A stretch of 59,558 nt of DNA. Source: an uncultured SAR116 cluster alpha proteobacterium (GTDB lineage: Bacteria > Pseudomonadota > Alphaproteobacteria > Puniceispirillales > GCA-002684695). Shown one piece after another: positions 41,493-54,572 of this stretch (the first letter of the stretch is position 1; every line of letters begins with the position of its first letter). A program made the translations under genes and the position numbers. The DNA lies in NCBI GenBank assembly GCA_902532475.1, contig CACAIE010000008.1, positions 1 through 59,558 of the forward strand, written 5' to 3'. The notes beneath the pieces were generated by a model. The model was given only the letters and a program-made list of their open reading frames with translations, made no database searches and was not told the origin of the DNA.

Positions 41493-42521
41493 ATGAAAAA
41501 AATATTATACGGAGTTAGTGCTGCAGTATTATCAGCATTAGTATCCACAACTGCTATGGCTGCAGACAAAGTTCTTACTGTGGCGTCTTGGGCTGCTCCA
41601 TTCCATACTCAGAATGAAAACTTCTTTCCTTGGATGAATGAACAGTTTAAAAGTTGCTCTGGAGGATCGCTTAGTCTTAAAGTGGAATACGGTTTGGCTC
41701 CACCACCAGCACTTTATGATTCAATCAGAGATGGCGTAGCTGATATTACTTGGATTGTTTATGGATATACACCAGGTAAATTTGTAACAACTATGATTGC
41801 AGAGCTACCTCTTATACCAGGAAACGCTCAAGAAAAATCGGTTGCTTTCCAAAAAACTTATGAAAAGTACTTAGAATCTGCTGGAGAAGCAAAAGGCGTT
41901 CAAATTTTAGCAAATTTTACTCATGGCCCAGGAATGGCGAACACTGTCAAAAAAGTTACTTCATACAAAGAACTTGAAGGTGTAAAAATGAGAGTTGGTG
42001 GCGGTGTTGCCAACGCTATTGGAACAGCTTTAGGCGTTGCAGGTGTTAATGCACCAGCTCCAAAAGTTTATGAAATCATTTCTGGCGGTGTTGCAGACGG
42101 GGTGATGTTTCCATTTGAAACAATGCATGCTTTTAAAATTGCTGAACTTGCAAAATACTCATTGCACAACCCAGATGGAATGTACACAACAGCATTTGCA
42201 GTTATCATGAACAATGATTCTTATAACGATCTTTCTGCTGCTCACAAAAAATGCATTGATGATATGCGTGGAGTATCACTTTCAAGAACAATTGGAAAAT
42301 ATTGGGATCAAGCAGATGATAAAGGAAAAGCTGCTGCAGCTGAATATAACCATGAGCTAACAATTGCAAGTCATGATGAAAGACAATATTTTAAAGAAAA
42401 AATGGGTCCAGTAATTGATGGTGTTATAAACAAAATTGATGCTGTAGGAGTAGACGCTAATGCAGCATTGTCTTACTTTAAAGAAGAAGTAAAAATTGAA
42501 AATGCACTTTCAGGTAATTAA
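41493..42521 (+). CDS. TRAP transporter substrate-binding protein (DctP family)
   Basis: A 342-residue periplasmic binding protein. A Sec signal peptide (MKKILYG, hydrophobic core, TAMA cleavage before ADKVLTVASWA) precedes the DctP fold. The conserved arginine strand VKMRVGGGVANAIGTALG and GVADGVMFPFETMHAFK follow, as in TRAP solute receptors for organic acids. GGGAG lies upstream of the ATG. It is 184 bases after the aldolase, preceded by AT-rich sequence that probably holds its own promoter. The ligand is probably an aromatic or other carboxylate, judged by neighbours. Confidence 0.94.
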   Translation: MKKILYGVSAAVLSALVSTTAMAADKVLTVASWAAPFHTQNENFFPWMNEQFKSCSGGSLSLKVEYGLAPPPALYDSIRDGVADITWIVYGYTPGKFVTTMIAELPLIPGNAQEKSVAFQKTYEKYLESAGEAKGVQILANFTHGPGMANTVKKVTSYKELEGVKMRVGGGVANAIGTALGVAGVNAPAPKVYEIISGGVADGVMFPFETMHAFKIAELAKYSLHNPDGMYTTAFAVIMNNDSYNDLSAAHKKCIDDMRGVSLSRTIGKYWDQADDKGKAAAAEYNHELTIASHDERQYFKEKMGPVIDGVINKIDAVGVDANAALSYFKEEVKIENALSGN

Positions 42522-42545
42522 TTAAAATAATTATTTGAATAACAC

Positions 42546-43109
42546 ATGAATCAATTTCTTAATACAATAGAGCGGCTAGCCATAAATGTTAGTCGCTCTA
42601 TTTCTATTTTAGCTGGGTTAGTATTACTCTGGATAGTGCTTATTACCTGTGTTGATGTTGTTGGAAGATATTTTTTTAATTCACCTCTTTATGCTGGGGC
42701 AGAAATAATAAAAGTTAGTATGGCCGGGGTAATTTTCTTTTCATTGCCTTATATGTTTTTCAAAAATGAGCATATTATAGTTGATCTTTTCCCAATTTTT
42801 AAAAGAGGCTATCTTGGATGGATTTTAGGTTTGGCTTTCCTAGCTATTGGAGGCTATGCTCTTTGGGTTATAGGAGACAAAACTTTCAGTTTGGCAATGC
42901 GATCTCTTGAAGATGGTGATACCTACGAATACATTATTGCTCCATCTTTTTTAGCTAGGGAAAATAGTGAATTTTTACCAAAAGTTTATATAGACACCTT
43001 TATTGCAGTCTCTATTTATTTTACTGTTTTTATGATAGCGCTTAAATTTCTTTTAGTTTTGTTAAAACCAGGCTCAAGTGCTGAAAGCTCAGAAGAGGAA
43101 AACTTATGA
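42546..43109 (+). CDS. TRAP transporter small permease (DctQ family)
   Basis: A 187-residue membrane protein with four predicted hydrophobic segments (about residues 18-38, 52-72, 88-108 and 140-165), the usual DctQ layout. WIVLITCVDVVGRYFFNSPLYAGAE contains the family VxxRY motif. The first 12 codons overlap a stem-loop (42568-42600). The stop overlaps the dctM start by four bases (ATGA), so the two membrane subunits are translationally coupled. It links the binding protein to the large permease. Confidence 0.92.
   Translation: MNQFLNTIERLAINVSRSISILAGLVLLWIVLITCVDVVGRYFFNSPLYAGAEIIKVSMAGVIFFSLPYMFFKNEHIIVDLFPIFKRGYLGWILGLAFLAIGGYALWVIGDKTFSLAMRSLEDGDTYEYIIAPSFLARENSEFLPKVYIDTFIAVSIYFTVFMIALKFLLVLLKPGSSAESSEEENL
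42568..42600 (+). other. Stem-loop in the 5' coding region of dctQ
   Basis: A 13-bp stem with two G-U wobbles, TAGAGCGGCTAGC (42568-42580) and GTTAGTCGCTCTA (42588-42600), and a seven-base loop, followed by TTTCTATTTTA. It lies inside the first codons of dctQ, just after the binding-protein gene. It could attenuate transcription or mask translation so that the binding protein is made in excess. This is inference from structure only. Confidence 0.5.
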
Positions 43110-44431
43110 GCGCTTTAACAATATCTTTTATTGGTTTTTCTGCAATCTTAATACTTGCATTTCTTAGATTCCCATTAGCTCTTTCTATGGGTTTGGTTGG
43201 AGTTATAGGATTTGGAGAACTTACCAATTATAGAGCTGCAATATCTAATATTGGTAGGCTGGTTATGGACCTTGGTCAGAGTTACTCTTTGTCTGTATTG
43301 CCCTTGTTTATTTTGATGGGTCTTCTGGTTGAAAAAGGAGGAATGGCTAAACAACTTTACAAAGCTGCTTATGCATTTCTTGGAGACAAAAAAGGTGGTT
43401 TGGCTATGTCAACAGTTGTTGCCTGTGGAATGTTCTCAGCAATTTCAGGCTCTTCTATAGCAACTGCTGCAACTATGTCTAAAGTTGCAATGCCTGAAAT
43501 GAGAAGGTATAAATACGCTGATTCATTAGCAACCGCATCTATAGCTGCTGGTGGTACCTTAGGAATTTTAATCCCACCGAGTGTTATTTTAGTTATCTAT
43601 GGGCTGCTCACAGAGCAATCTATAGGTAAACTTTTTATGGCAGGCTTCCTCCCTGGCATGTTAGGGATTTTGTTTTACACACTTGCTGTATTTTTTGTTG
43701 TCTCAAGAAATCCCTCTTTAGGACCAGCAGGAGAAAAAACAAACTGGCCTGAAAGACTACTAGCTTTAAAAGACGTATGGACAACATTAGCTCTTTTTAT
43801 CTTTGTAATTGGAGGGATATATATAGGTCTATTTTCTGCCACAGAAGCTGCTGGTATGGGAGCAGCAGGCGCTCTTGTTATTGCGTTATCAAGTGGTAAC
43901 TTAAATTTTAATGTATATCTTAATGTTTTAAGAGATGCTTCAGTTTTAGCTGCCAAACTATTTGCTTTGTTATTTGGTGCAACAATGTTCTCAAACTTTT
44001 TGAATAGAGCAGGATTACCAGATGCATTGTTGGGTATAATTAATTCATTTGAACTTTCAGGCATGGCTGTAATTTTTATAATTCTAATAATTTATATTCT
44101 TCTGGGATGTGTGTTTGAGTCCATGTCAATGATACTTCTAACCGTTCCAATTTTTGTCCCCCTAGTGAAAAACCTTGCACCTGAGCTAGGATTAAGTCCC
44201 GACTTAGTTCTCATTTGGTTTGGAATTTTAGTTGTGGTAGTGACGGAAATTAGTCTTATCACTCCTCCTATTGGATTAAATGTTTTTGTTTTAAAGGGAG
44301 TAGTAAAAAACGTCTCAGTAGGGACAATTTTTTACGGTGTAACACCCTTTTGGATTGTTGACATAATTAGACTTGCAATTATTGTTTTATTTCCAGCAAT
44401 TGCATTATTTTTACCATCTATGATGTTCTAA
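43106..44431 (+). CDS. TRAP transporter large permease (DctM family)
   Basis: A 441-residue polytopic permease. Hallmarks are VLPLFILMGLLVEKGGMAKQLY, MFSAISGSSIATAATMSKVAMPEM, AAGGTLGILIPPSVILVIYG and TPPIGLNVFVLKGV. It forms the ion-coupled channel with DctQ and DctP. Its start overlaps the dctQ stop by four bases. Its TAA (44429-44431) overlaps the TAG of the convergent acyl-CoA ligase (44428-44430), leaving no space for a terminator. Confidence 0.96.
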   Translation: MSALTISFIGFSAILILAFLRFPLALSMGLVGVIGFGELTNYRAAISNIGRLVMDLGQSYSLSVLPLFILMGLLVEKGGMAKQLYKAAYAFLGDKKGGLAMSTVVACGMFSAISGSSIATAATMSKVAMPEMRRYKYADSLATASIAAGGTLGILIPPSVILVIYGLLTEQSIGKLFMAGFLPGMLGILFYTLAVFFVVSRNPSLGPAGEKTNWPERLLALKDVWTTLALFIFVIGGIYIGLFSATEAAGMGAAGALVIALSSGNLNFNVYLNVLRDASVLAAKLFALLFGATMFSNFLNRAGLPDALLGIINSFELSGMAVIFIILIIYILLGCVFESMSMILLTVPIFVPLVKNLAPELGLSPDLVLIWFGILVVVVTEISLITPPIGLNVFVLKGVVKNVSVGTIFYGVTPFWIVDIIRLAIIVLFPAIALFLPSMMF

Positions 44432-45924
44432 ATAACTAATTCTTTTACTTCATCAATTACTATTTTACCTAGTGCGTTTCTAGGTAAAGCTTGAACAAAC
44501 AGAACGTCTTTTGGAATTTTGTAATTTGCTACTTTTCCTTTAAAAAGTTTTAATATGTCCTCTGGTAAAATATTTAAATTTTTTCTTACCGCAACAATAA
44601 CTGGAACTTCCCCCCATTTTTCATCTTTCCTTCCGACAATTGAATATTCCTTTAAATTCTGATTTTTGGAAAGAAGTGTTTCTAATTCAGCAGGATAAAT
44701 ATTTTCTCCGCCAGAAATTATTACATTTTTAATCCTATCAACAAACCAATAGTTTCCATCTAAATCAACTTTTGCTACATCACCAGTTTGAAACCAACCA
44801 TCAATTATACTATCCTTAGTGGAAGTTTTATCTTCCCAATAGGATTCAAGGATATTGTCACCTTTTATTAATATCTGACCCGGTTCTCCATAACCAACAT
44901 CTTCAAGTTCTTCGTTGACCAATCGAACAAAACAATATAATCCCTTCTTACCTATAGATCCCTCTGAAATTAATGCGTCTCCAATTGTCTGATAAATTGC
45001 TATTGGCCCGGTTTCAGTTGCTCCATATATTTGAATAATGGGTATATTATATTCATGTACTTTTCTTATTAATGACAATGGAACATTTGTTGACCCAATA
45101 GAAATTGCTCTTAATGAAGAAAGTTTGGTTTCATTCCATGATTTCGAATTTATTATTTGGTCAAGTACTGTTGGAACTGTGATAATGTGCGTTATGTGAT
45201 AATTTTCAATAGCCTTAATTGCATCTTCTGGATCAAATTTTTCTTGAAGAACCACGGTTGCACCTAGAAACAAAGCTGGCATAAGTAAAATATTTATCCC
45301 ACCAACATGGAACAGAGGTAAAAAGACTAAAACATTATCAGAAGACTGTAATGAATGAGCATGGTGACTCATCTTTGCGTTGCAAATTAAAGCTTTTTGA
45401 TTTAGTAAAGCCCCTTTTGGTTTTCCAGTTGTACCCGAAGTATAAACAAGTAAAACTGGTAGATTATTATCCACAATGTAATTAATTTTATATAAATTTT
45501 TCCTTCTTTCTAAAAGAGATTTGTTCTTCCCAGCCGGTGTATCAATAGCTACCATTTCAATGTTTTTATTCAGATTTAATAAGTCTAAATTGTTTTTAAA
45601 TCTAGAATGATAGAATATCATTTTGGGTTTAGAATGGTTAACTTGAAATTCAATTTCAGGATTGGCCAATCTCCAATTTAAAGGGGAAAGAATAACTCCA
45701 ATTTTTGAGGACGCTAGAAGTAAAATGATTTGCTCAGGGTTATTCGGTCCGTAGAAACAAATCCTATCTCCTATTTTTAAGTTACCTTCTTTTTGAAGAA
45801 AAGATGCAGTTTCTATTATTGCATTATTTAATTTTTCATATGACCAAATTGTATCTTTAAATATAATTGCTGGTTTATCAGATGAAATCTCTCCAAATTC
45901 ACAAAACCATTGATCAACTCTCAT
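44428..45924 (-). CDS. AMP-forming acyl-CoA synthetase (second)
   Basis: A 498-residue ANL-family ligase. The P-loop is LVYTSGTTGKPKGALL, followed by PIIQIYGATETGP, the hinge FVDRIKNVIISGGENIYPAE and the catalytic lysine in NALGKIVIDEV. I start at the ATG at 45924 (MRVDQWFCEF), preceded by AAGGTG; the longer open frame to 46035 only reads through the acyl-CoA dehydrogenase gene in another frame. The start overlaps the dehydrogenase stop by 11 bases. The ligase should activate the carboxylic acid oxidised by the dehydrogenase, at the end of the ring-opening module on this strand. Confidence 0.94.
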   Translation of the reverse strand: MRVDQWFCEFGEISSDKPAIIFKDTIWSYEKLNNAIIETASFLQKEGNLKIGDRICFYGPNNPEQIILLLASSKIGVILSPLNWRLANPEIEFQVNHSKPKMIFYHSRFKNNLDLLNLNKNIEMVAIDTPAGKNKSLLERRKNLYKINYIVDNNLPVLLVYTSGTTGKPKGALLNQKALICNAKMSHHAHSLQSSDNVLVFLPLFHVGGINILLMPALFLGATVVLQEKFDPEDAIKAIENYHITHIITVPTVLDQIINSKSWNETKLSSLRAISIGSTNVPLSLIRKVHEYNIPIIQIYGATETGPIAIYQTIGDALISEGSIGKKGLYCFVRLVNEELEDVGYGEPGQILIKGDNILESYWEDKTSTKDSIIDGWFQTGDVAKVDLDGNYWFVDRIKNVIISGGENIYPAELETLLSKNQNLKEYSIVGRKDEKWGEVPVIVAVRKNLNILPEDILKLFKGKVANYKIPKDVLFVQALPRNALGKIVIDEVKELVI

Positions 45925-47167
45925 CACTTTCACCTTGCTCGTAAAGGGCTCCCTTCCCAAGCATGTCCATGCATAACTCAGCAGTCCAAGGCAGCATAAG
46001 AGCTCCGCACCTACTATCTCGATAAAATCTTTCAAGAGGTTGTGATTTTAACATTGATTGTCCACCACATGTTCTTATTGCCAGTCTGGCAATTTCATTT
46101 ACATTTTCCATAACAGAATATTGAGCAGCCCAAGCTCTCATTAATTGTTCTTTTGATGGGTTTGGTTTAGCCTCAGAAATTGACTGATACCAAATTGATT
46201 TTGTTTGTTCTAAGATTATTTTTATTTGGGCTACTGTAAGTTGTTTTGTTGGATACATTCTTCTCTTTACAGGTGACATTCCTGGTTGTTCACCTCTTAA
46301 ATATCTTACTGTAAAGTCATAACATGCCTGAGCTATACCTACATAACTAGGTGTCAGCGTCATAAACATATGTGGCCATTGCTTAGCAGCATTATAATAA
46401 ATTCCTCTTGGCATTAGTTGTTCTTCAAATGGGATAAAAACATCTTCAAATATTAGAGTACGGGAAACTGTTCCTCTCATACCAAGTGGATCCCAATCAC
46501 CCTCTACCCGAACTCCTTTCTGATGAGCAGGAATTGCAATATACATCGTATTTGATCTTGAAGGCTTGGAGTTTATTTCCAATAGCTCAGTACATAACAC
46601 CCCATAGTAATTTGCATGGCCTGAAAGAGATGCAAAAATCTTTTTACCGTTTACTATCCACCCTTTTTCTGTTCTCAATGCGATTGTACCAAATGCCGTC
46701 TTGCCCGCTGCAGAAGCATTACCTTCAGAAAATGGTTGAGCATAAATAGACCCTTTCTTTAAAATCCTCTCATAATGCATTTCCCTCATTTTATGATGCT
46801 CTTTTCTTGTGTCCTTATCCATCTCCAGTTGATCTGATAAAAAGCCAGTCCAAAGACACGAGCTAACATGCATATTAAATGTTAAGGCCGTTGCACCACA
46901 ATATCTTCCTATTTCGGATGCAGCTAACATATAAGTTTTAAGGTCTGCGTCACGACCACCATATTCTTTAGGAATACAAATGCCCATTAAATTATGTTCG
47001 TAAAGATCAGAGTAATTTTCCGAGGGAAACGTAGCATCCAAGTCGTATTTAGCCGCTCTTTTTTCAAATTTCTTGGAAGCAATTATTCTGGTTTCTTCAC
47101 AAAGCTGCTTTTGTTGCTTTGTAAGTTTCCATTCTGAAGGTTCAAATATAGGTTTGTCTATGAGCAT
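45914..47167 (-). CDS. Acyl-CoA dehydrogenase family flavoprotein
   Basis: A 417-residue acyl-CoA dehydrogenase-fold protein. N-terminal helices (EETRIIASKKFEKRAAKYD) lead to IPKEYGGRDAD, the flavin-binding middle domain YAQPFSEGNASAAG followed by KKIFASLSGHANYYGV, and the C-terminal helices RTCGGQSMLKSQPLERFYRDSR. The last segment carries the usual FAD-contact arginine region. The position normally holding the catalytic glutamate was not identified with certainty, so a monooxygenase-like role (as in DszC/HpaB relatives) is also possible. Start and stop are tightly packed between the alpha/beta hydrolase and the acyl-CoA ligase. Confidence 0.9.
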   Translation of the reverse strand: MLIDKPIFEPSEWKLTKQQKQLCEETRIIASKKFEKRAAKYDLDATFPSENYSDLYEHNLMGICIPKEYGGRDADLKTYMLAASEIGRYCGATALTFNMHVSSCLWTGFLSDQLEMDKDTRKEHHKMREMHYERILKKGSIYAQPFSEGNASAAGKTAFGTIALRTEKGWIVNGKKIFASLSGHANYYGVLCTELLEINSKPSRSNTMYIAIPAHQKGVRVEGDWDPLGMRGTVSRTLIFEDVFIPFEEQLMPRGIYYNAAKQWPHMFMTLTPSYVGIAQACYDFTVRYLRGEQPGMSPVKRRMYPTKQLTVAQIKIILEQTKSIWYQSISEAKPNPSKEQLMRAWAAQYSVMENVNEIARLAIRTCGGQSMLKSQPLERFYRDSRCGALMLPWTAELCMDMLGKGALYEQGESDES

Positions 47168-47974
47168 TTAATTTTCCTGATTTAATGATTTTAAAGTTAA
47201 ATTTTCAAGAAATTCAACAATTATTTCATTAGTTTCTTTTGGTGATTCCAAATTAACCAAATGGCCTGCATTATTAATATTATAATATTTGCAATCACTT
47301 AATTTGTCAGACATTTTCTTCATGGTTTTACTTGGAGAATTATTATCTTCAGAACCAGAAATTAAACAACAAGGAATATTAATCTTAGAGAAGTCGTGAT
47401 ATCTGTCAAACGTAACCAAACATGAAATAACTTTTTTATACGTCTCTGCAGGTATATTTTCCATAGATTGAATAGCACTATTTATTACATTTTGAGATGC
47501 TGGATGAGCCAAGATAGAAGGCACAAAAGACTTTGCCAAGTCTTTCATGGTTTTTCCTAATGAAAGAGGTTTTAATCGTTTTTCCAAAAATTCTTTTTTA
47601 AAACTTTGGTCTTTCCCTCCAAAAGCTGATGTTGTTGCTATTAAGATAAGAGAGTTTACTTTATTCGGATACCTAAAAAAAAATTCTTGTGCCAACATTC
47701 CTCCTATTGATTGCCCAATTAAAGTGGTGTTGTATATTTTTAAATCTGATAGGAATTCATTTAAGCTATAACATAAATTTTCAAATGAATAGTTTTCCAA
47801 GGTTTTTGATCCTTTATAACCAGGCATATTCCATGAAATGACTCTATATTTACTGGATAAATTCTTTAATTGCGGTTCAAAACTTTTATCATCACCCCCA
47901 ATTCCATGTAAGCAAATTAATGAATTCGTAGAATTACCTTCTTCACTATAGAAAATTTTTCCAGTAGAATGCAT
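47168..47974 (-). CDS. Alpha/beta hydrolase, NicD/PcaD-like
   Basis: A 268-residue alpha/beta hydrolase. The oxyanion strand is LICLHGIGGDDKSF, the nucleophile elbow LIGQSIGGML contains the serine, a likely acid is in LISGSEDNNSP, and the histidine is in NNAGHLVNLE. Its ATG overlaps the stop of the NicX-like gene by one base (TAATG), so the two are translationally coupled. In nicotinate degradation NicX is followed by NicD, an alpha/beta hydrolase that removes formate from N-formylmaleamate, so a similar role here is a strong contextual inference. Enol-lactone hydrolase (PcaD) relatives look alike in sequence. Confidence 0.9.
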   Translation of the reverse strand: MHSTGKIFYSEEGNSTNSLICLHGIGGDDKSFEPQLKNLSSKYRVISWNMPGYKGSKTLENYSFENLCYSLNEFLSDLKIYNTTLIGQSIGGMLAQEFFFRYPNKVNSLILIATTSAFGGKDQSFKKEFLEKRLKPLSLGKTMKDLAKSFVPSILAHPASQNVINSAIQSMENIPAETYKKVISCLVTFDRYHDFSKINIPCCLISGSEDNNSPSKTMKKMSDKLSDCKYYNINNAGHLVNLESPKETNEIIVEFLENLTLKSLNQEN

Positions 47975-49005
47975 TAAACAACCAATCCTTTATCAACAAC
48001 AATTTTATTATCTAAAAGAATTGTACATTCCATCATAGGTAAATCAAAATGCCCATCGGTAAACCTGTTTGCAAACTCATTCGCGCCAATTGAATATAAA
48101 AAACATCCGGATAATGCCCTTAATTCAGTTCCATTTAAGTCAGACTTGTCATACATAGTAAGAGATTCATATCTTGCTTTTTTATTGAGCCCCCATCCTA
48201 CATGACTAGTAGCATAAGCATTTTTATCTCCAAAATCCTTAAGATAATTTTTCATTAGTTTGACGTCTGAACCTGTTCCAGAAATACTTGTTACAAAGTC
48301 ATTTTCAATATTAAAGATTACCTCACTTTCGAAATATTTTTTAAAAGTTAGGTTTATATCACCAGGTTGAAAAACAATTTTTCCATTCACAGAAGATTTG
48401 TTTGGGAAGCTAACCACTAACCCTCCTGGCCAATGAGCAAGTGTTCCGGGTCTATCTGTCCACCCCCAAACACCCACAGTATTAGTGTTCTTTAAATTTA
48501 CTTCCAAATTTGTACCTACTTCCGATTTTACTTTCATGACCGATGCATTTCTACACTGTGCAACAGCTTCCTTAACAATCTCTTTTAAAGATAAATCTGG
48601 TTTAAGGCGTGCGAGGATATCTGGATGTTCATCAGAAATACACATAATTCTTGTCCCAGAAGAAAGTATTTCTTTAGTTTGCTTAGAGTGCATTAATCCC
48701 TCTTTGCTTAAATCAAAAATAACATCTGTCTCTTTTAAAATTTTAAGATTTTCATCTTCAAAATCCAGAATGTTCGATGCTCCTGTTGATCTTATAATAG
48801 GATCAACTGAATATGGTTTAGAGTTTATTTCAATTTTTTTATATTTCAGAGAATGGTCTTTTAGAACAAGCTCAACAAGAGAAATATTAATCTGCCTACT
48901 CAACGTTTCCGTTAAAACTACAACATTTTCATTTGTCTTAATTTTGCACAACTCTAGTAATAATGAAAATGTTTCTTTCCAGTGTTCTTGAATTTTATTT
49001 TCCAT
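47974..49005 (-). CDS. 2,5-Dihydroxypyridine 5,6-dioxygenase-like protein (NicX family)
   Basis: A 343-residue protein matching the NicX family, an M29-aminopeptidase fold converted to a non-heme Fe(II) ring-cleaving dioxygenase. The family's three iron ligands (His265, His318, Asp320 in Pseudomonas NicX) correspond to His268 (SHVGWGL), His319 and Asp321 (GHFDLPM). The long shared stretch around GWTDRPGTLAHWPGGLVVSFPN also fits. It would open a dihydroxypyridine-type ring to an N-formyl amide. The downstream coupled alpha/beta hydrolase supports this. The ring substituents of the true substrate are unknown, and nicotinate hydroxylase genes are not in the window. Confidence 0.85.
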   Translation of the reverse strand: MENKIQEHWKETFSLLLELCKIKTNENVVVLTETLSRQINISLVELVLKDHSLKYKKIEINSKPYSVDPIIRSTGASNILDFEDENLKILKETDVIFDLSKEGLMHSKQTKEILSSGTRIMCISDEHPDILARLKPDLSLKEIVKEAVAQCRNASVMKVKSEVGTNLEVNLKNTNTVGVWGWTDRPGTLAHWPGGLVVSFPNKSSVNGKIVFQPGDINLTFKKYFESEVIFNIENDFVTSISGTGSDVKLMKNYLKDFGDKNAYATSHVGWGLNKKARYESLTMYDKSDLNGTELRALSGCFLYSIGANEFANRFTDGHFDLPMMECTILLDNKIVVDKGLVV

Positions 49006-49293: not shown

Positions 49294-50529
49294 TTAGAAA
49301 TTTAGAGCCCATTGACCTTTTCTAAACACTGGTATTTTTGTACCATCTTCCTCAATGCCATCTATATCAATTTGATTAGAGCCTATCATCCAGTCAATGT
49401 GTATCATGCTTGAGTTTCCACCTTTGGAGATAATCTCTTCTTTTGTGAGATTTTGATTTTTAAAACATTTTGTATAGCATTGACCGAGAGCAATATGGCA
49501 TGCTGCATTTTCATCAAAAAGAGTATTATAAAATAGGAGACCTGTCTGAGCGATCGGTGAATTATCAGGAACCAGAGCAACTTCTCCCAGACGTCGTGCC
49601 CCTTCATCAGAGTCTAACACTTTCAGCAAAACTTCTTCGCCTTTAGATGCGTGAGCTTCAATAATTTTTCCTTTTTCAAATTTAACTTTAATGTTTTCGA
49701 TTAAACTGCCTTGGTGAGACAATGGTTTAGTTGCGCATACTTCACCATCTACTTTTTGCGCATGGGGCGTTGTAAACACCTCTTCTGATGGAATATTAGG
49801 ATTACATATAACACCATTTTGAGCCATTGATGCTCCACCCATCCATTCATGGTCTTTTGCTAAACCAACAGTTAAATCGGTGCCTGGTCCTTTAAAATGA
49901 AGTGAATAAAAATTTTTTTTATTCAACCAATCAGACCATTTCTTTAAATTTTTGTTATGCTTATCCCATTCTTCAACTGGGTCCAAACCATCAACTCTTG
50001 AAGCTGAAAAAATAGCATCTGCCAATCTACTTTGAGCTTCTTCAGGTTTTAGTTCAGGGAACATTTGAATTGCCCAGGCCTTCCCTGGCCAAGAAATAAT
50101 ATTCCAATTAATATCAAATCTTGTTATCCTTTCTCTTGCTGGCTTATAAGCGATCGATGTAGCTTTGTTTGCTCTGCCAACCTTATCTGGGTCTTGACTT
50201 GATAATAATAATGGGTCTTCTCCAACTATTGCTAGTCTTGCAGTATTATTATCAAAAGCTTCACCCATTCCATTGAATAGCCAATTCGGTGCCTTATCAA
50301 AAGATTCATCTGGTGCATGTAAATACCTCGCAAGTGTTATTTCTGGATCCGAAAACAATGGAGTAACTATATTAGCTCCTGCTTTGTAAGCGTGTACAGA
50401 AATCCTTCTCACAAGTGGCAAAGCTTCTATTGGAGCTGTTAATAAAAGGTCTTGTCCTTTTTGTAAAGCTACTCCTGTCTTGATTGCAAGTTCAGCTAAT
50501 TTATCTAATTTTTGTTCATTTATAATCAA
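49294..50529 (-). CDS. M29 family aminopeptidase (AmpS/PepS-like)
   Basis: A 411-residue member of the thermophilic aminopeptidase family M29, a dinuclear metal exopeptidase of normal length. The metal-site blocks are GLAKDHEWMGGASMAQNG, NIPSEEVFTTPHAQKVDGEV (the family's conserved NxPxxEVFT-P), LGEVALVPDNSPI and SMIHIDWMIGS. It is a classical cytoplasmic peptidase in sequence, unlike the two NicX-fold neighbours on each side. Its presence between them in one strand run suggests local duplication and divergence of the fold, or amide hydrolysis in the same pathway. The latter is inference. Confidence 0.92.
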   Translation of the reverse strand: MIINEQKLDKLAELAIKTGVALQKGQDLLLTAPIEALPLVRRISVHAYKAGANIVTPLFSDPEITLARYLHAPDESFDKAPNWLFNGMGEAFDNNTARLAIVGEDPLLLSSQDPDKVGRANKATSIAYKPARERITRFDINWNIISWPGKAWAIQMFPELKPEEAQSRLADAIFSASRVDGLDPVEEWDKHNKNLKKWSDWLNKKNFYSLHFKGPGTDLTVGLAKDHEWMGGASMAQNGVICNPNIPSEEVFTTPHAQKVDGEVCATKPLSHQGSLIENIKVKFEKGKIIEAHASKGEEVLLKVLDSDEGARRLGEVALVPDNSPIAQTGLLFYNTLFDENAACHIALGQCYTKCFKNQNLTKEEIISKGGNSSMIHIDWMIGSNQIDIDGIEEDGTKIPVFRKGQWALNF

Positions 50530-50554
50530 TATAATTTCCTAAGTTAGTTTAATT

Positions 50555-51610
50555 TTAGTTAATAAAAAGTTCCTTTAAATCAGCCCATTTATCAATACAA
50601 TCCTTAGTTTCTATAAAATTATTGGCCACTAATTGTCCATCTTTCCATAAGGGCTCTCCATCAATAATAATGCTGTGATTTTGTACCATCCAACAAATCT
50701 CACCTGGAGCATAGTCGCCACATGTATGGAAGTGCAAAAACTTTGGGCTACCAAAAATTGTATTAGACCATCTATCTGGATCATCTTCAATTGGAAAATC
50801 ATAGTACGTACCTGGATGAATACCTGCGTGCCAAGAATCAATGTTATACTTTTCAATATTAAACATTTTAGCAACATCATTGTAGTGATTTTTAACTCTA
50901 TTTATAGTCTCTTCATCTCCTTCAAAATCTAAAATCTTTCCTTGTTCAACAATTGAAAAAATATCTTTCTTTAATTCTAAATTAGGGGGTTCGTATACTT
51001 TTGATCCAGTGGGTGTTAAATACTTGGAAAGGGCTACTTTTCCTGAAAAACGTTTTGCACTTATAGGCGTGGGGACAAGCATTGGAAAACGTATAACCCC
51101 TACATCTGTACTTTCATCAATTTTTAACTTAGGCAATTCTCCAGAAATGTTTGTTCCTAATGGGCAAGTTATTTTAACATTCCCACCTTTTGAAAATATT
51201 GTGTTTATTGCTTTTTTTAATTCAATTAATGCTTGATGATGGGTACAGCCAAATTTAGATGCTAAGTTTTCTGCGCTCCTGGCATATGACATGACTCTTT
51301 TCGTATTAAATGATGATTTCTCAAATCTATCTTGATCTCCTATCCTCGCAAAAAATATTGTGCAGTCAAAATCATCAATAACTTTTGTTAATTTACTTTT
51401 TGAATCATTTTGTGGACCACCAACTTCCAGAATAGTTGTTTTAATGCTCATGCCCTTTGCTTCTGCAGCTAGAGCATCAGTAATATCTTTGTTATACCAC
51501 CCTAATACAGGGTCTTCAGATATAATTAACAAAGTTTGATTTCTTGATAAGTCTGCACAATTTTCTAATATATTTTTTGCACCTTTTGTTATATTTTCAG
51601 GATTTATCAT
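50555..51610 (-). CDS. M29/NicX-superfamily protein of unknown substrate
   Basis: A 351-residue protein distantly related to NicX and M29 peptidases. The NicX layout recurs: His261 in SWHAGIHPG, about 32 residues later His293/His295 and Asp299 in HFHTCGD, then GEICWMVQNHSIIIDGEPLWKDG in the C-terminal strand. The N-terminal domain (NQTLLIISEDPVLG) resembles that of M29 proteins. The ATG at 51610 is chosen, since the longer frame uses a TTG at 51643 inside the 2OG-oxygenase gene. It lies four bases after that gene. A ring-opening dioxygenase or amide hydrolase on a second heterocycle are both possible; the function is not known. Confidence 0.72.
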   Translation of the reverse strand: MINPENITKGAKNILENCADLSRNQTLLIISEDPVLGWYNKDITDALAAEAKGMSIKTTILEVGGPQNDSKSKLTKVIDDFDCTIFFARIGDQDRFEKSSFNTKRVMSYARSAENLASKFGCTHHQALIELKKAINTIFSKGGNVKITCPLGTNISGELPKLKIDESTDVGVIRFPMLVPTPISAKRFSGKVALSKYLTPTGSKVYEPPNLELKKDIFSIVEQGKILDFEGDEETINRVKNHYNDVAKMFNIEKYNIDSWHAGIHPGTYYDFPIEDDPDRWSNTIFGSPKFLHFHTCGDYAPGEICWMVQNHSIIIDGEPLWKDGQLVANNFIETKDCIDKWADLKELFIN

Positions 51611-51614
51611 AAAA

Positions 51615-52577
51615 TTATTTTCGATAAGAAAAAGCTTTTCCAAATCTCCAAATTAGGTATTCGCCACATGTTATTGGTTTTTCAACGTCTTTAATAGTTT
51701 TTCCAAGTATTTCCTTTGGATCAATTATTGTTTCTGGATCCGGGTCGAATGCTAAAACTATTGATAATCTCTCTTTACCAGACTTATTCACGACACGGTG
51801 GGGTGTAGATTTATATTCACCACCTGTCCATCGTGAAAGCAAATCTGCAACATTTACAATAATTGTATCTTCAATAGGTGGAGCGTGAAACCATTTGCCG
51901 TTTATATCTTCTACTTGAAGTCCACCAACTGAATCTTGGCAAAGAACTGTCAAAACTCCAAAATCAGTGTGGGAACTAACACCAAATTGATTTTTTCCAA
52001 GACTGGATGGTTGATTTGGGTAATAAACAAGAGAAGCCCTACTCAGAGGATTTTTGCAGGTTTTCAAAAAAAACTCTTGGTCTAATTTTAAGCCTAAAGC
52101 AAAACCACGTAATAAATTTCTCGCTAATTTATCAGCATGGTTAAAATAGCTCATTGCATATTGTTCCAATTCAGGTTGAAACTTAGGCCAGACATTGTTC
52201 CCTCTCAGCGGATGGTTGTCCAAAGAAAAACCATTTTTATCTTGGTGTCCCCATAAAAAGCTTTCTTTCAAATCAGCTTTAGCATTGTCTTCCATCTTTG
52301 CACCGCCATAGCCCAACCAGCCTCGATGCTTTTCTGTTATTTTAACTTCACTTTTTTTACTTTTATTATTCCTAAAAAACGCTAGACCTTCATTCCTTAA
52401 TAATTCTATAACTTCTTTAGGTATTCCATGTCCTTTAATATAGATAAAACCTAATCCAGTGCTAGCTTTGTGAAGCTCTGATGAAACAGATTTAGGGTCA
52501 CTCCCATCACATAATTTGGTTATGTCTATAACAGGTATTTTGTCAATTTCTAAATGTTTTGCTTCAGTGTAGGACAT
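51615..52577 (-). CDS. Isopenicillin N synthase-like 2OG-Fe(II) oxygenase
   Basis: A 320-residue non-heme iron oxygenase of the IPNS/2-oxoglutarate-dependent family. The N-terminal DIOX_N block is IPVIDITKLCDG. The iron ligands are in SSHTDFGVLTVL (His and Asp) and STPHRVVN (His), and the R-x-S motif RLSIVLAF that binds the 2-oxoglutarate carboxylate is present. It would hydroxylate or desaturate a small molecule using 2-oxoglutarate and oxygen. It is upstream of the M29/NicX-fold genes in the same run and may install a hydroxyl group before ring opening. The substrate is unknown. Confidence 0.93.
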   Translation of the reverse strand: MSYTEAKHLEIDKIPVIDITKLCDGSDPKSVSSELHKASTGLGFIYIKGHGIPKEVIELLRNEGLAFFRNNKSKKSEVKITEKHRGWLGYGGAKMEDNAKADLKESFLWGHQDKNGFSLDNHPLRGNNVWPKFQPELEQYAMSYFNHADKLARNLLRGFALGLKLDQEFFLKTCKNPLSRASLVYYPNQPSSLGKNQFGVSSHTDFGVLTVLCQDSVGGLQVEDINGKWFHAPPIEDTIIVNVADLLSRWTGGEYKSTPHRVVNKSGKERLSIVLAFDPDPETIIDPKEILGKTIKDVEKPITCGEYLIWRFGKAFSYRK

Positions 52578-52623
52578 AATTTAGAATATATTTGATAATT
52601 AAAATAGAATCCAATAATTAAAA

Positions 52624-52968
52624 TTAACCTTTAGCATTTGACATTTGCTCAAAAGCATCTAGCGCTTTTGCACTATAGGTTATAGATGGCCCTCCCCCCA
52701 TATAAGATGCCATGCTCAAAGCTTCAATAAATTCACCTTTAGTCGCTCCAAGGCGAACTAATGAAGCAACATGAAATCCTATACAACTTTCACATCTAGT
52801 CGCAATCGCTATACCTAGAGCAATAAATTCTTTTGTTTTTTCGCTTAACTCTCCATTCTTTTTTGCCTCTTTACCCATAGCATTAAAACCCTTAAAGGTT
52901 TCAGGTATATTTTTGTTGAGGTTCGCAAAACTTTTTTGGGTATCTGATAAAAATGATTTCCAGTCCAT
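52624..52968 (-). CDS. Carboxymuconolactone decarboxylase / AhpD-like protein
   Basis: A 114-residue protein of the CMD family with the AhpD-type redox motif C-x-x-C in TRCESCIGFHVASLVRLGATKGE, where the following histidine completes the proton relay. The C-x-x-C and the GATKGEFIEALSMASYMGG helix support an alkylhydroperoxidase-like role (peroxide defence) rather than a true decarboxylase. It is the first gene of the minus-strand ring-opening run, 46 bases before the 2OG oxygenase, and may protect against peroxide from these oxygenases. Confidence 0.9.
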   Translation of the reverse strand: MDWKSFLSDTQKSFANLNKNIPETFKGFNAMGKEAKKNGELSEKTKEFIALGIAIATRCESCIGFHVASLVRLGATKGEFIEALSMASYMGGGPSITYSAKALDAFEQMSNAKG

Positions 52969-53045
52969 AACTTTCCTTTTTTATAAATATTTTTTTACAG
53001 TTAGAATCTTTGTTAATAATTTATTTAATATGAATTGTTTTTACT

Positions 53046-53816
53046 TCAACCTTTACTTTCGTCTGAACCCATTTTTCTTTCAAGCCACCTAACTACCTGA
53101 CTTATAATTAAAACTAAAATTAGATACTCAAAAATAAGCAAAGTATAGATTTCTAAAGGTCTATATTCTGTAACAACAATTTCATTGGCACGGCGTGTTA
53201 ATTCCTGCATTCCTATTACTGATGCAAATGCTGACATTTTTACTATATAAATAAATTGATTTGCTAAAGGTGGCAATATACGCCTCAGTGCTTGTGGCAA
53301 AATTACATACCGCATAGTTTGATAATAATTAAGACCTACAGTTTGCGCAGCTTCAGTTTGCCCTTTTTGTATTGATTGAATACCCGCTCTATATATCTCC
53401 GCAGTAAAAGCGCTGTCAGATATAGCCAAAGTAAGAATAGCTCCCCAGAAAGCATCAATATTAATATTGATGCCCATTGATTTTAATACTACAGGCAACC
53501 CATAAAAAACCCAGAATAACATTGGCAATAACGGAATAGCTCTAATAAATTCTACATATATTCTGCTAATCGTTCTTAAAAAGATATTATTCGACATACC
53601 TGGTAAAGCAACAATTAAGCCTAATATTATTGACATAAACGCCGCAATTATTGACAACTGTATTGTAGATGAAAAGCCTCCTATTAAGAATTTAATGTTT
53701 GTTAAGCCTGACTGGGTATTTGGATTTATGACATACCATCCCCATGTACCCGGTGGCGATGAGCATCCACATAATAGCAGAATAAAAAATAGAAAAATGT
53801 AAGTGTTTATCTTCAT
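53046..53816 (-). CDS. Polar amino acid ABC transporter permease
   Basis: A 256-residue HisM/GlnP-type inner-membrane permease. The binding-protein-dependent transport signature lies around EIYRAGIQSIQKGQTEAAQTVGLNYYQTMRYVILPQALRR, read as adjoining short blocks, with five or so hydrophobic segments. The N-terminus contains a lipobox-like LLCGCSSPPGTWGWY before the first transport segment; this also occurs in related alphaproteobacterial permeases and may simply be part of a first membrane helix. It works with the ATPase encoded 9 bases upstream and probably with the binding protein encoded divergently at 55119. Confidence 0.93.
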   Translation of the reverse strand: MKINTYIFLFFILLLCGCSSPPGTWGWYVINPNTQSGLTNIKFLIGGFSSTIQLSIIAAFMSIILGLIVALPGMSNNIFLRTISRIYVEFIRAIPLLPMLFWVFYGLPVVLKSMGININIDAFWGAILTLAISDSAFTAEIYRAGIQSIQKGQTEAAQTVGLNYYQTMRYVILPQALRRILPPLANQFIYIVKMSAFASVIGMQELTRRANEIVVTEYRPLEIYTLLIFEYLILVLIISQVVRWLERKMGSDESKG

Positions 53817-53825
53817 TATTTCTCT

Positions 53826-54572
53826 TTAATGCTGTAAAATTTGCTTTAAAAATATTCTACAGCGGTCAGTTTTTGGTGTTTCAAAAAATTCATTTGGAGT
53901 TCCTATTTCTACTATCTTACCTTCATCCATAAAAATCATTCTATCAGCTGCTTTCCTTGCAAATCCCATCTCGTGAGTGACAACAACCATGGTCATACCA
54001 TCATTTGCTAAATCTATAATCACATCAAGAACTTCAGAAATCATTTCTGGATCAAGTGCTGAAGTAGGTTCATCAAAAAGCATGATTTTTGGTTCCATAC
54101 ATAAAGATCGAGCTATTGCAACTCGTTGCTGCTGTCCACCTGACAATTGGCTTGGACGTTTATTAGCTTGCTCAGGTATTTTTACCCGCTCCAGTAGTAA
54201 AAACGCTCTTTCTTTTGCCTCTTTTTCACTCAACCCTAGAGCATTAATTGGTCCTAAAGTTAGATTTTGAATTACTGAAAGATGGGGGAAGAGATTAAAT
54301 TGCTGAAATACCATCCCAACATCTGATCTAATTTCCGCAATAGACTTTGGGTCATTTGTAAGCTCAGTTCCCCTTACATTTATCGTGCCTGATTGATGCA
54401 TTTCTAATCTATTAATACACCTAACAAGAGTAGACTTACCTGAACCAGATGGGCCGCAAATTACTACCTTTTCTCCTTCTTGGACCGTTAAATTGATATC
54501 CTTAAGAACTTTAAATTCACCAAACCATTTGTTAAGATTATTAATATTTATAGCGGGTGATAAACTAACCAT
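53826..54572 (-). CDS. Polar amino acid ABC transporter ATPase
   Basis: A 248-residue GlnQ/HisP-type ATPase. Walker A is GPSGSGKST, the Q-loop is [13 protein letters not shown], the signature is [15 protein letters not shown], Walker B is [13 protein letters not shown], and the switch region is [15 protein letters not shown]. The C-terminal [11 protein letters not shown] tail is standard. It pairs with the following permease. Its start faces a TrpR-like regulator gene across 227 AT-rich bases. That gap includes an imperfect AT-rich inverted repeat (54598-54607 and 54645-54654) upstream of the ATPase. Confidence 0.96.

Follow-up and report, generated by a model that had tools for sequence, protein, structure and literature searches.

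What is a NicX-family dioxygenase doing in an operon that lacks the other genes of nicotinate degradation? The question is raised by the window analyzed here (the whole stretch of 59,558 nucleotides, from an uncultured SAR116 cluster alphaproteobacterium), in which a NicX-like gene, an alpha/beta hydrolase gene, a gene for a protein with the acyl-CoA dehydrogenase (ACAD) fold and an AMP-forming ligase gene are transcribed in that order from the minus strand. The initial annotation had taken this cassette to be a variant N-heterocycle ring-opening module. We give roughly even odds to the reading that the four genes are central to the aerobic breakdown of an N-heteroaromatic acid to anthranilate or anthraniloyl-CoA; the likeliest such acid would be indole-3-acetic acid or another indolic acid close to it. 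The genes of the cassette and of the adjoining TRAP transporter are as follows.

47974 to 49005, minus strand: NicX-like non-heme Fe(II) dioxygenase, 343 aa (phmmer match to 7cn3, iron ligands, AlphaFold2 model)
47168 to 47974, minus strand: alpha/beta hydrolase, PcaD/MenH-like, in the NicD position (Pfam PF00561, 1.2e-23; triad comparison)
45914 to 47167, minus strand: ACAD-fold flavoprotein lacking the catalytic Glu, probably a two-component flavin monooxygenase (profiles, residues)
44428 to 46035, likely start 45924, minus strand: AMP-forming acyl/aryl-CoA ligase (PF00501, 8.4e-75)
41493 to 42521, plus strand: TRAP solute-binding protein DctP, putatively of the aromatic-acid type (PF03480)
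42546 to 43109, plus strand: TRAP small permease subunit DctQ (position and co-conservation)
43106 to 44431, plus strand: TRAP large permease subunit DctM (71 to 72% identity to the cassette-adjoining DctM of L021 to L024)

The stop codon of the NicX-like gene and the start codon of the hydrolase gene have one base in common (TAATG), as the initial annotation had it. For the ligase, a start at 45924, giving an 11-base overlap with the ACAD-like gene, is more likely, judging from the translation and from the -11 spacing in several relatives. The transporter genes (41493 to 44431) converge with the cassette and are co-located with it in nine further loci (L018, L021 to L023, L025, L056, L057, L066, and L099); the PDB entry nearest to DctP is 4p56, and the set 5i5p/5iga was also matched. 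None of NicA, NicB, NicC, NicD, NicE, and NicF adjoins the cassette, and queries with NicF, NicE, and NicC against the whole genome (1.94 Mb, 65% complete) found distant paralogues only (26 to 31% identical), in agreement with the reported absence of NicAB, NicC, NicE, and NicF.

The NicX-like protein matched no Pfam or NCBIfam model, PF02073 included. Its assignment to the NicX family, proposed earlier, was borne out by a phmmer match to NicX of Pseudomonas putida KT2440 (2,5-dihydroxypyridine 5,6-dioxygenase; 7cn3, E 7e-46) and by an AlphaFold2 model built from 25 relatives (pLDDT 92.5), in which the predicted fold is that of NicX (TM 0.92 to 7cn3, compared with about 0.6 to M29 peptidases). 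The iron ligands of NicX are His265, Ser302, His318, and Asp320 (PMC7910607); in the alignment to 7cn3 all are kept in the window protein, and they are invariant in cassette members. The iron ligands claimed for this protein are thus present, but they number four rather than three. His105 and His189 of NicX are conserved as well, with Leu or Met at position 104. Identity in the structural alignment is nevertheless only 29 to 30%, and the substrate pocket differs. In NicX, Glu177 together with His189 holds the 2-oxygen (2-OH) of dihydroxypyridine (PMC7910607). The canonical NicX proteins in our set have Glu or Gln at this position, whereas the window protein has Val and every other type I or type II cassette member has Val or Gly, with Thr in L026 only. 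At position 308, most cassette members likewise have Phe, Val, or Thr instead of Glu. Because the iron ligands are kept and Glu177 and Glu308 are changed, the chemistry at the iron site is likely to be the same as in NicX and the substrate to be different. In a tree, 41 cassette-type proteins formed one clade (support 100) beside, and apart from, 21 canonical NicX proteins (support 97), and they did not group with M29 peptidases.

The partner proteins also depart from the nicotinate pathway. The hydrolase gene overlaps and follows the NicX-like gene just as a hydrolase gene follows nicX, and it had accordingly been placed in the role of NicD (N-formylmaleamate deformylase). The position is indeed that of NicD, but orthology is ruled out by the triad comparison, because the catalytic acid of the cassette hydrolase lies after strand 7 and not in the DPPVSGPGR motif after strand 6, where we take that of canonical NicD to be. 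The cassette protein is closer to hydrolases of the PcaD/MenH type. Genes for an acyl-CoA dehydrogenase and a ligase had been expected next, and both are in place; the first of these labels, however, probably describes a fold rather than an activity. A Glu residue is the catalytic base of acyl-CoA dehydrogenases. In the ACAD-like proteins that include the region, it is gone at both known positions, those of the YEGT motif and of isovaleryl-CoA dehydrogenase (the YEGT region has the consensus DSRCG-LMLPWT), which rules out an ordinary acyl-CoA dehydrogenase. In profile searches, the best PDB relatives were 5gj7/5z8t, the latter titled flavin-containing monooxygenase, followed by nitrososynthases; true dehydrogenases are just as close in overall fold. 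In many relatives, a flavin reductase gene (PF01613), a MarR gene, or both are oriented divergently to the cassette. The window cassette has neither adjoining it, and a flavin reductase gene (43%) is found on contig C7 of the same genome. The missing Glu and the frequently adjoining flavin reductase suggest that the ACAD-fold protein is probably a two-component flavin monooxygenase; if so, the CoA chemistry of the module would belong to the ligase and to a downstream anthraniloyl-CoA pathway.

A search for conserved gene order found NicX, hydrolase, ACAD, and ligase genes in that order in 25 fetched loci. The NicX and hydrolase genes are spaced at -4 in 16 of these loci and at 0 to -4 bases in 22; genes of the GC-rich loci were called in this analysis with a codon-usage caller. 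This recurrence is far beyond chance. In one sample of 385 genomes, the carriers belonged to 18 families; more were found outside the class of the window organism, and close-relative carriers include, by name, Rhodobacteraceae and Leucothrix metagenome-assembled genomes. The genes on the other side of the cassette, in a block from 49294 to 54572, are a true M29 peptidase gene (49294 to 50529), a gene for a 362-aa protein (50555 to 51643), and genes for a 2OG-Fe(II) oxygenase, a 114-aa protein, and an ABC transporter. The peptidase, the 362-aa protein, the oxygenase, and the transporter were rejected as parts of the module, since they stand beside the cassette in the same genus only. The 362-aa protein, encoded between the peptidase and the oxygenase and found next to the cassette only in that genus (L018 and L019), had no Pfam, NCBIfam, or PDB match.

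Two associations of the cassette bear on its substrate. The first is with a 2-aminobenzoyl-CoA operon, marked by NF006101 (an enzyme of the salicylyl-CoA 5-hydroxylase / 2-aminobenzoyl-CoA monooxygenase type) and also encoding an enoyl-CoA hydratase, a short-chain dehydrogenase (SDR), and a ligase of its own. This operon is often beside the cassette or in the same genome: it adjoins the cassette or lies within about 20 kb of it in several lineages (NF006101, 1316 bits), including one group of large genomes (6 to 8 Mb, probably Bradyrhizobium). The window genome has a match at 61313 to 63598 of contig C5 (L132, 9314 to 11599; 1257 bits), with ligase, ACAD, enoyl-CoA hydratase, and SDR genes. 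One in-frame TGA was counted in this match, which could reflect faulty assembly or recent decay, or be the stop codon of the gene. In the sample of 385 genomes, NF006101 was over the cutoff in 19 of 26 cassette genomes, compared with 46 of 359 others (Fisher P value of 5e-11, inflated by relatedness and genome size) and with 8 of 24 genomes with canonical NicX (P value of 0.01, inflated in the same ways). A full-length match was absent from the other 7 cassette genomes, among them the complete genome G009. The operon is separate from the cassette, and we propose a downstream role for it; because it has its own ligase, anthranilate may not be what the cassette ligase activates. Also in favor of the indolic reading, a kynureninase gene and a TDO-like gene lie near L110, and a TDO-like gene is found in L057.

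The second association is with regulators of the IadR type. For the MarR proteins encoded next to the cassettes of L107 and L099, the nearest PDB entry was IadR of Variovorax (E 2e-34 and 2e-30), and the next was the R. pomeroyi protein 3cdh. IadR is a repressor and sensor of indole-3-acetate, and the R. pomeroyi protein was, in the same study, the MarR with the highest affinity for this compound (PMC9613470). Among all neighbor genes collected there were 11 strong matches to IadR, every one within 1 kb of a NicX gene of the cassette clade. Arg46 and Ser28 of IadR bind the carboxylate of indole-3-acetate (PMC9613470); the former is conserved in all 11 proteins and the latter in 7. From these two residues we infer the probable ligand specificity of the MarR proteins. 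The only MarR match in the window genome was weak.

A pyridine substrate, as NicX has, is one alternative. In such a pathway, the ring opened by the NicX-like enzyme would be that of a substituted hydroxypyridine carboxylate, whose side chain or acid would be left to the ligase and the ACAD-fold protein. The conserved fold, iron site, Leu/Met104-His105 pair, and His189 would all fit, and a molybdenum hydroxylase gene follows the cassette in L016. However, that is the only cassette locus with such a gene, the Glu177 contact is gone across the clade, and NicA, NicB, NicC, NicE, and NicF show no association with the cassette, while the anthranilate and IadR context is strong. We therefore consider a pyridine pathway unlikely and prefer an indolic or anthranilate context, to which the neighbors and regulators point. 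What stands of the module originally proposed is a conserved NicX-type variant tied to CoA chemistry; a dihydroxypyridine substrate is not supported, given the loss of Glu177 and the lack, as a rule, of neighbors for pyridine hydroxylation or the maleate pathway. Homarine (N-methylpicolinate) catabolism was also considered, since the genome may be marine, and was set aside; the context was unfitting, and the literature gave nothing on its genes.

The indolic acid pathway that we propose would run as follows. The TRAP transporter would import the acid, and the ACAD-fold protein, supplied with reduced flavin by a separate flavin reductase, would hydroxylate the pyrrole ring. The NicX-like Fe(II) enzyme would then add O2 and break the ring C-C bond beside the hydroxylated carbon; with the geometry of NicX, C(OH)=C-N, the bond cut in an indole would be C2-C3, and the product would be an N-formyl or N-carboxy 2-aminophenyl compound. 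The alpha/beta hydrolase would remove either the N-acyl substituent or the side chain. The ligase would join CoA in a thioester to the anthranilate finally formed or, if it acts first, to the starting acid. The 2-aminobenzoyl-CoA operon on contig C5 would degrade the product. The fold and iron site of the dioxygenase, its changed pocket, the loss of the ACAD base, the conservation of the operon, and the genomic links to 2-aminobenzoyl-CoA degradation and to regulators like IadR are observed; from them we infer the substrate and the order of the steps.

Flavin-reductase-dependent first oxygenases are also a feature of the iac and iif/ind systems (IacA/IacG and IifC/IifD), and oxygenases of the IacA/IifC type have an ACAD-type fold. 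No NicX-like enzyme is reported in these systems, however, and their routes differ, that of iac ending in catechol and that of iif passing through indole dihydrodiol. Features that the cassettes share with the iad locus of Variovorax and Bradyrhizobium are a CoA ligase, anthranilate as the likely end product and, in many relatives, an IadR-type MarR. In contrast to the NicX-like dioxygenase of the cassettes, iad uses the Rieske system IadCDE, the thiolase IadG, and the formamidase-like IadI (PMC12633357), and neither Rieske IadDE nor IadAB was found among the cassette neighbors profiled, which were a part of all neighbors. Membership in iad was set aside, since the published enzyme set differs. 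The enzymes of the iad and iac routes are other than those of the cassette (PMC9613470, PMC12633357), and in the open-access literature joining NicX with indole or anthranilate, or M29 with indole-3-acetate genes, we found no such module described. It is possible, although we hold it only tentatively, that the cassette adds to iac and iad a third aerobic route of indole-3-acetic acid degradation, in which the indole ring is cleaved by a NicX-type dioxygenase built on the M29-peptidase fold. The route would occur in many bacterial families, marine-type lineages among them. That reading, if true, would supply the missing genes of a route of 1961 from indole-3-acetate through 2-formamidobenzoylacetate to anthranilate; the intermediate is credited to Tsubokura, with no genes assigned, in the passage of PMC11630574 that mentions it. 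Indole-3-acetic acid, the possible substrate, is a hormone of plants and algae, and the turnover of auxin and indole in plant-associated and probably marine bacteria might then be wider than iac and iad markers show. More generally, an indolic substrate would extend the NicX reaction beyond one pyridine and provide candidate genes for an old, unassigned route from indolic acid to anthranilate. The public labels "peptidase M29" and "acyl-CoA dehydrogenase" hide the pathway from annotation.

The link to anthranilate could have another meaning, in which the ring of anthranilate itself is attacked: the ligase would form anthraniloyl-CoA, the ACAD-fold protein would hydroxylate it, the NicX-like enzyme would open the benzene ring, and the hydrolase would finish the degradation. 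This would account for both the ligase and the anthranilate link and would suit the cassette genomes that have no full NF006101 match, as well as the kynureninase gene near L110. Such a route would, however, be redundant with the 2-aminobenzoyl-CoA operon of most cassette genomes, which sometimes even adjoins the cassette; moreover, NicX cuts a heterocycle at an N-bonded carbon, and the IadR-type sensors suggest indole-3-acetate over anthranilate. We regard it as improbable. To the same low degree we credit indole or indole-3-carboxylate as the substrate, with hydroxylation to indoxyl, C2-C3 cleavage by the NicX-like enzyme to N-formylanthranilate, deformylation by the hydrolase, and activation of anthranilate by the ligase. 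The cleavage would be an exact analogue of that of 2,5-dihydroxypyridine, there would be a step for all four genes, and N-formylanthranilate was proposed as a bacterial product of indole by Sakamoto in 1953, without assigned genes in the part of PMC6221969 that treats the proposal. On the other hand, the TRAP transporter and the carboxylate-binding Arg of the IadR-like regulators point to an acid that carries a side chain, and tryptophanase was not noticed near cassettes. A role as M29 aminopeptidase for the NicX-like protein, in an operon unrelated to ring cleavage, as the public labels of its relatives and the true M29 gene of the window might suggest, is very hard to reconcile with the missing PF02073 match, the much higher TM score to NicX, and the invariant iron ligands.

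Several variants of the cassette were observed. A cytochrome P450 gene lies upstream of the NicX-like gene in L021 to L023 and L056, and the first three of these loci also have genes for a PaaZ-like ALDH-MaoC fusion and an enoyl-CoA hydratase. Some NicX-like members of the clade stand without part of the cassette or with a different monooxygenase (L074, L076, and L077). These three loci have a gene of the FAD aromatic hydroxylase type (FAD_binding_3 and Rng_hyd_C were profiled in L076) and Tyr at the position of His189, and in L076 and L077, genes for a YCII-type protein and a hydrolase are found where the ACAD and ligase genes would stand. A lone ACAD-like gene, 54% identical to that of the window, lies among transposons and toxin-antitoxin genes on a conjugative plasmid labeled cyanobacterial (Dolichospermum sp. 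DET69, L144), with the other three genes absent. Finally, the window genome has a second type of cassette (type II; L026, contig C32, 1 to 18941), also seen in L111 to L115, L145, and L146, with genes for a NicX-like protein, an ACAD-like protein, an SRPBCC-hydrolase fusion, a TetR regulator, and a glutamine-synthetase-like protein. Type II cassettes often occur with a gentisate-dioxygenase-like cupin, an FAA hydrolase, a nitrilase, and a flavin reductase. They might serve a hydroxylated indole amine; the type II cassette of Aminobacter lies near a gene for a tyramine oxidase subunit.
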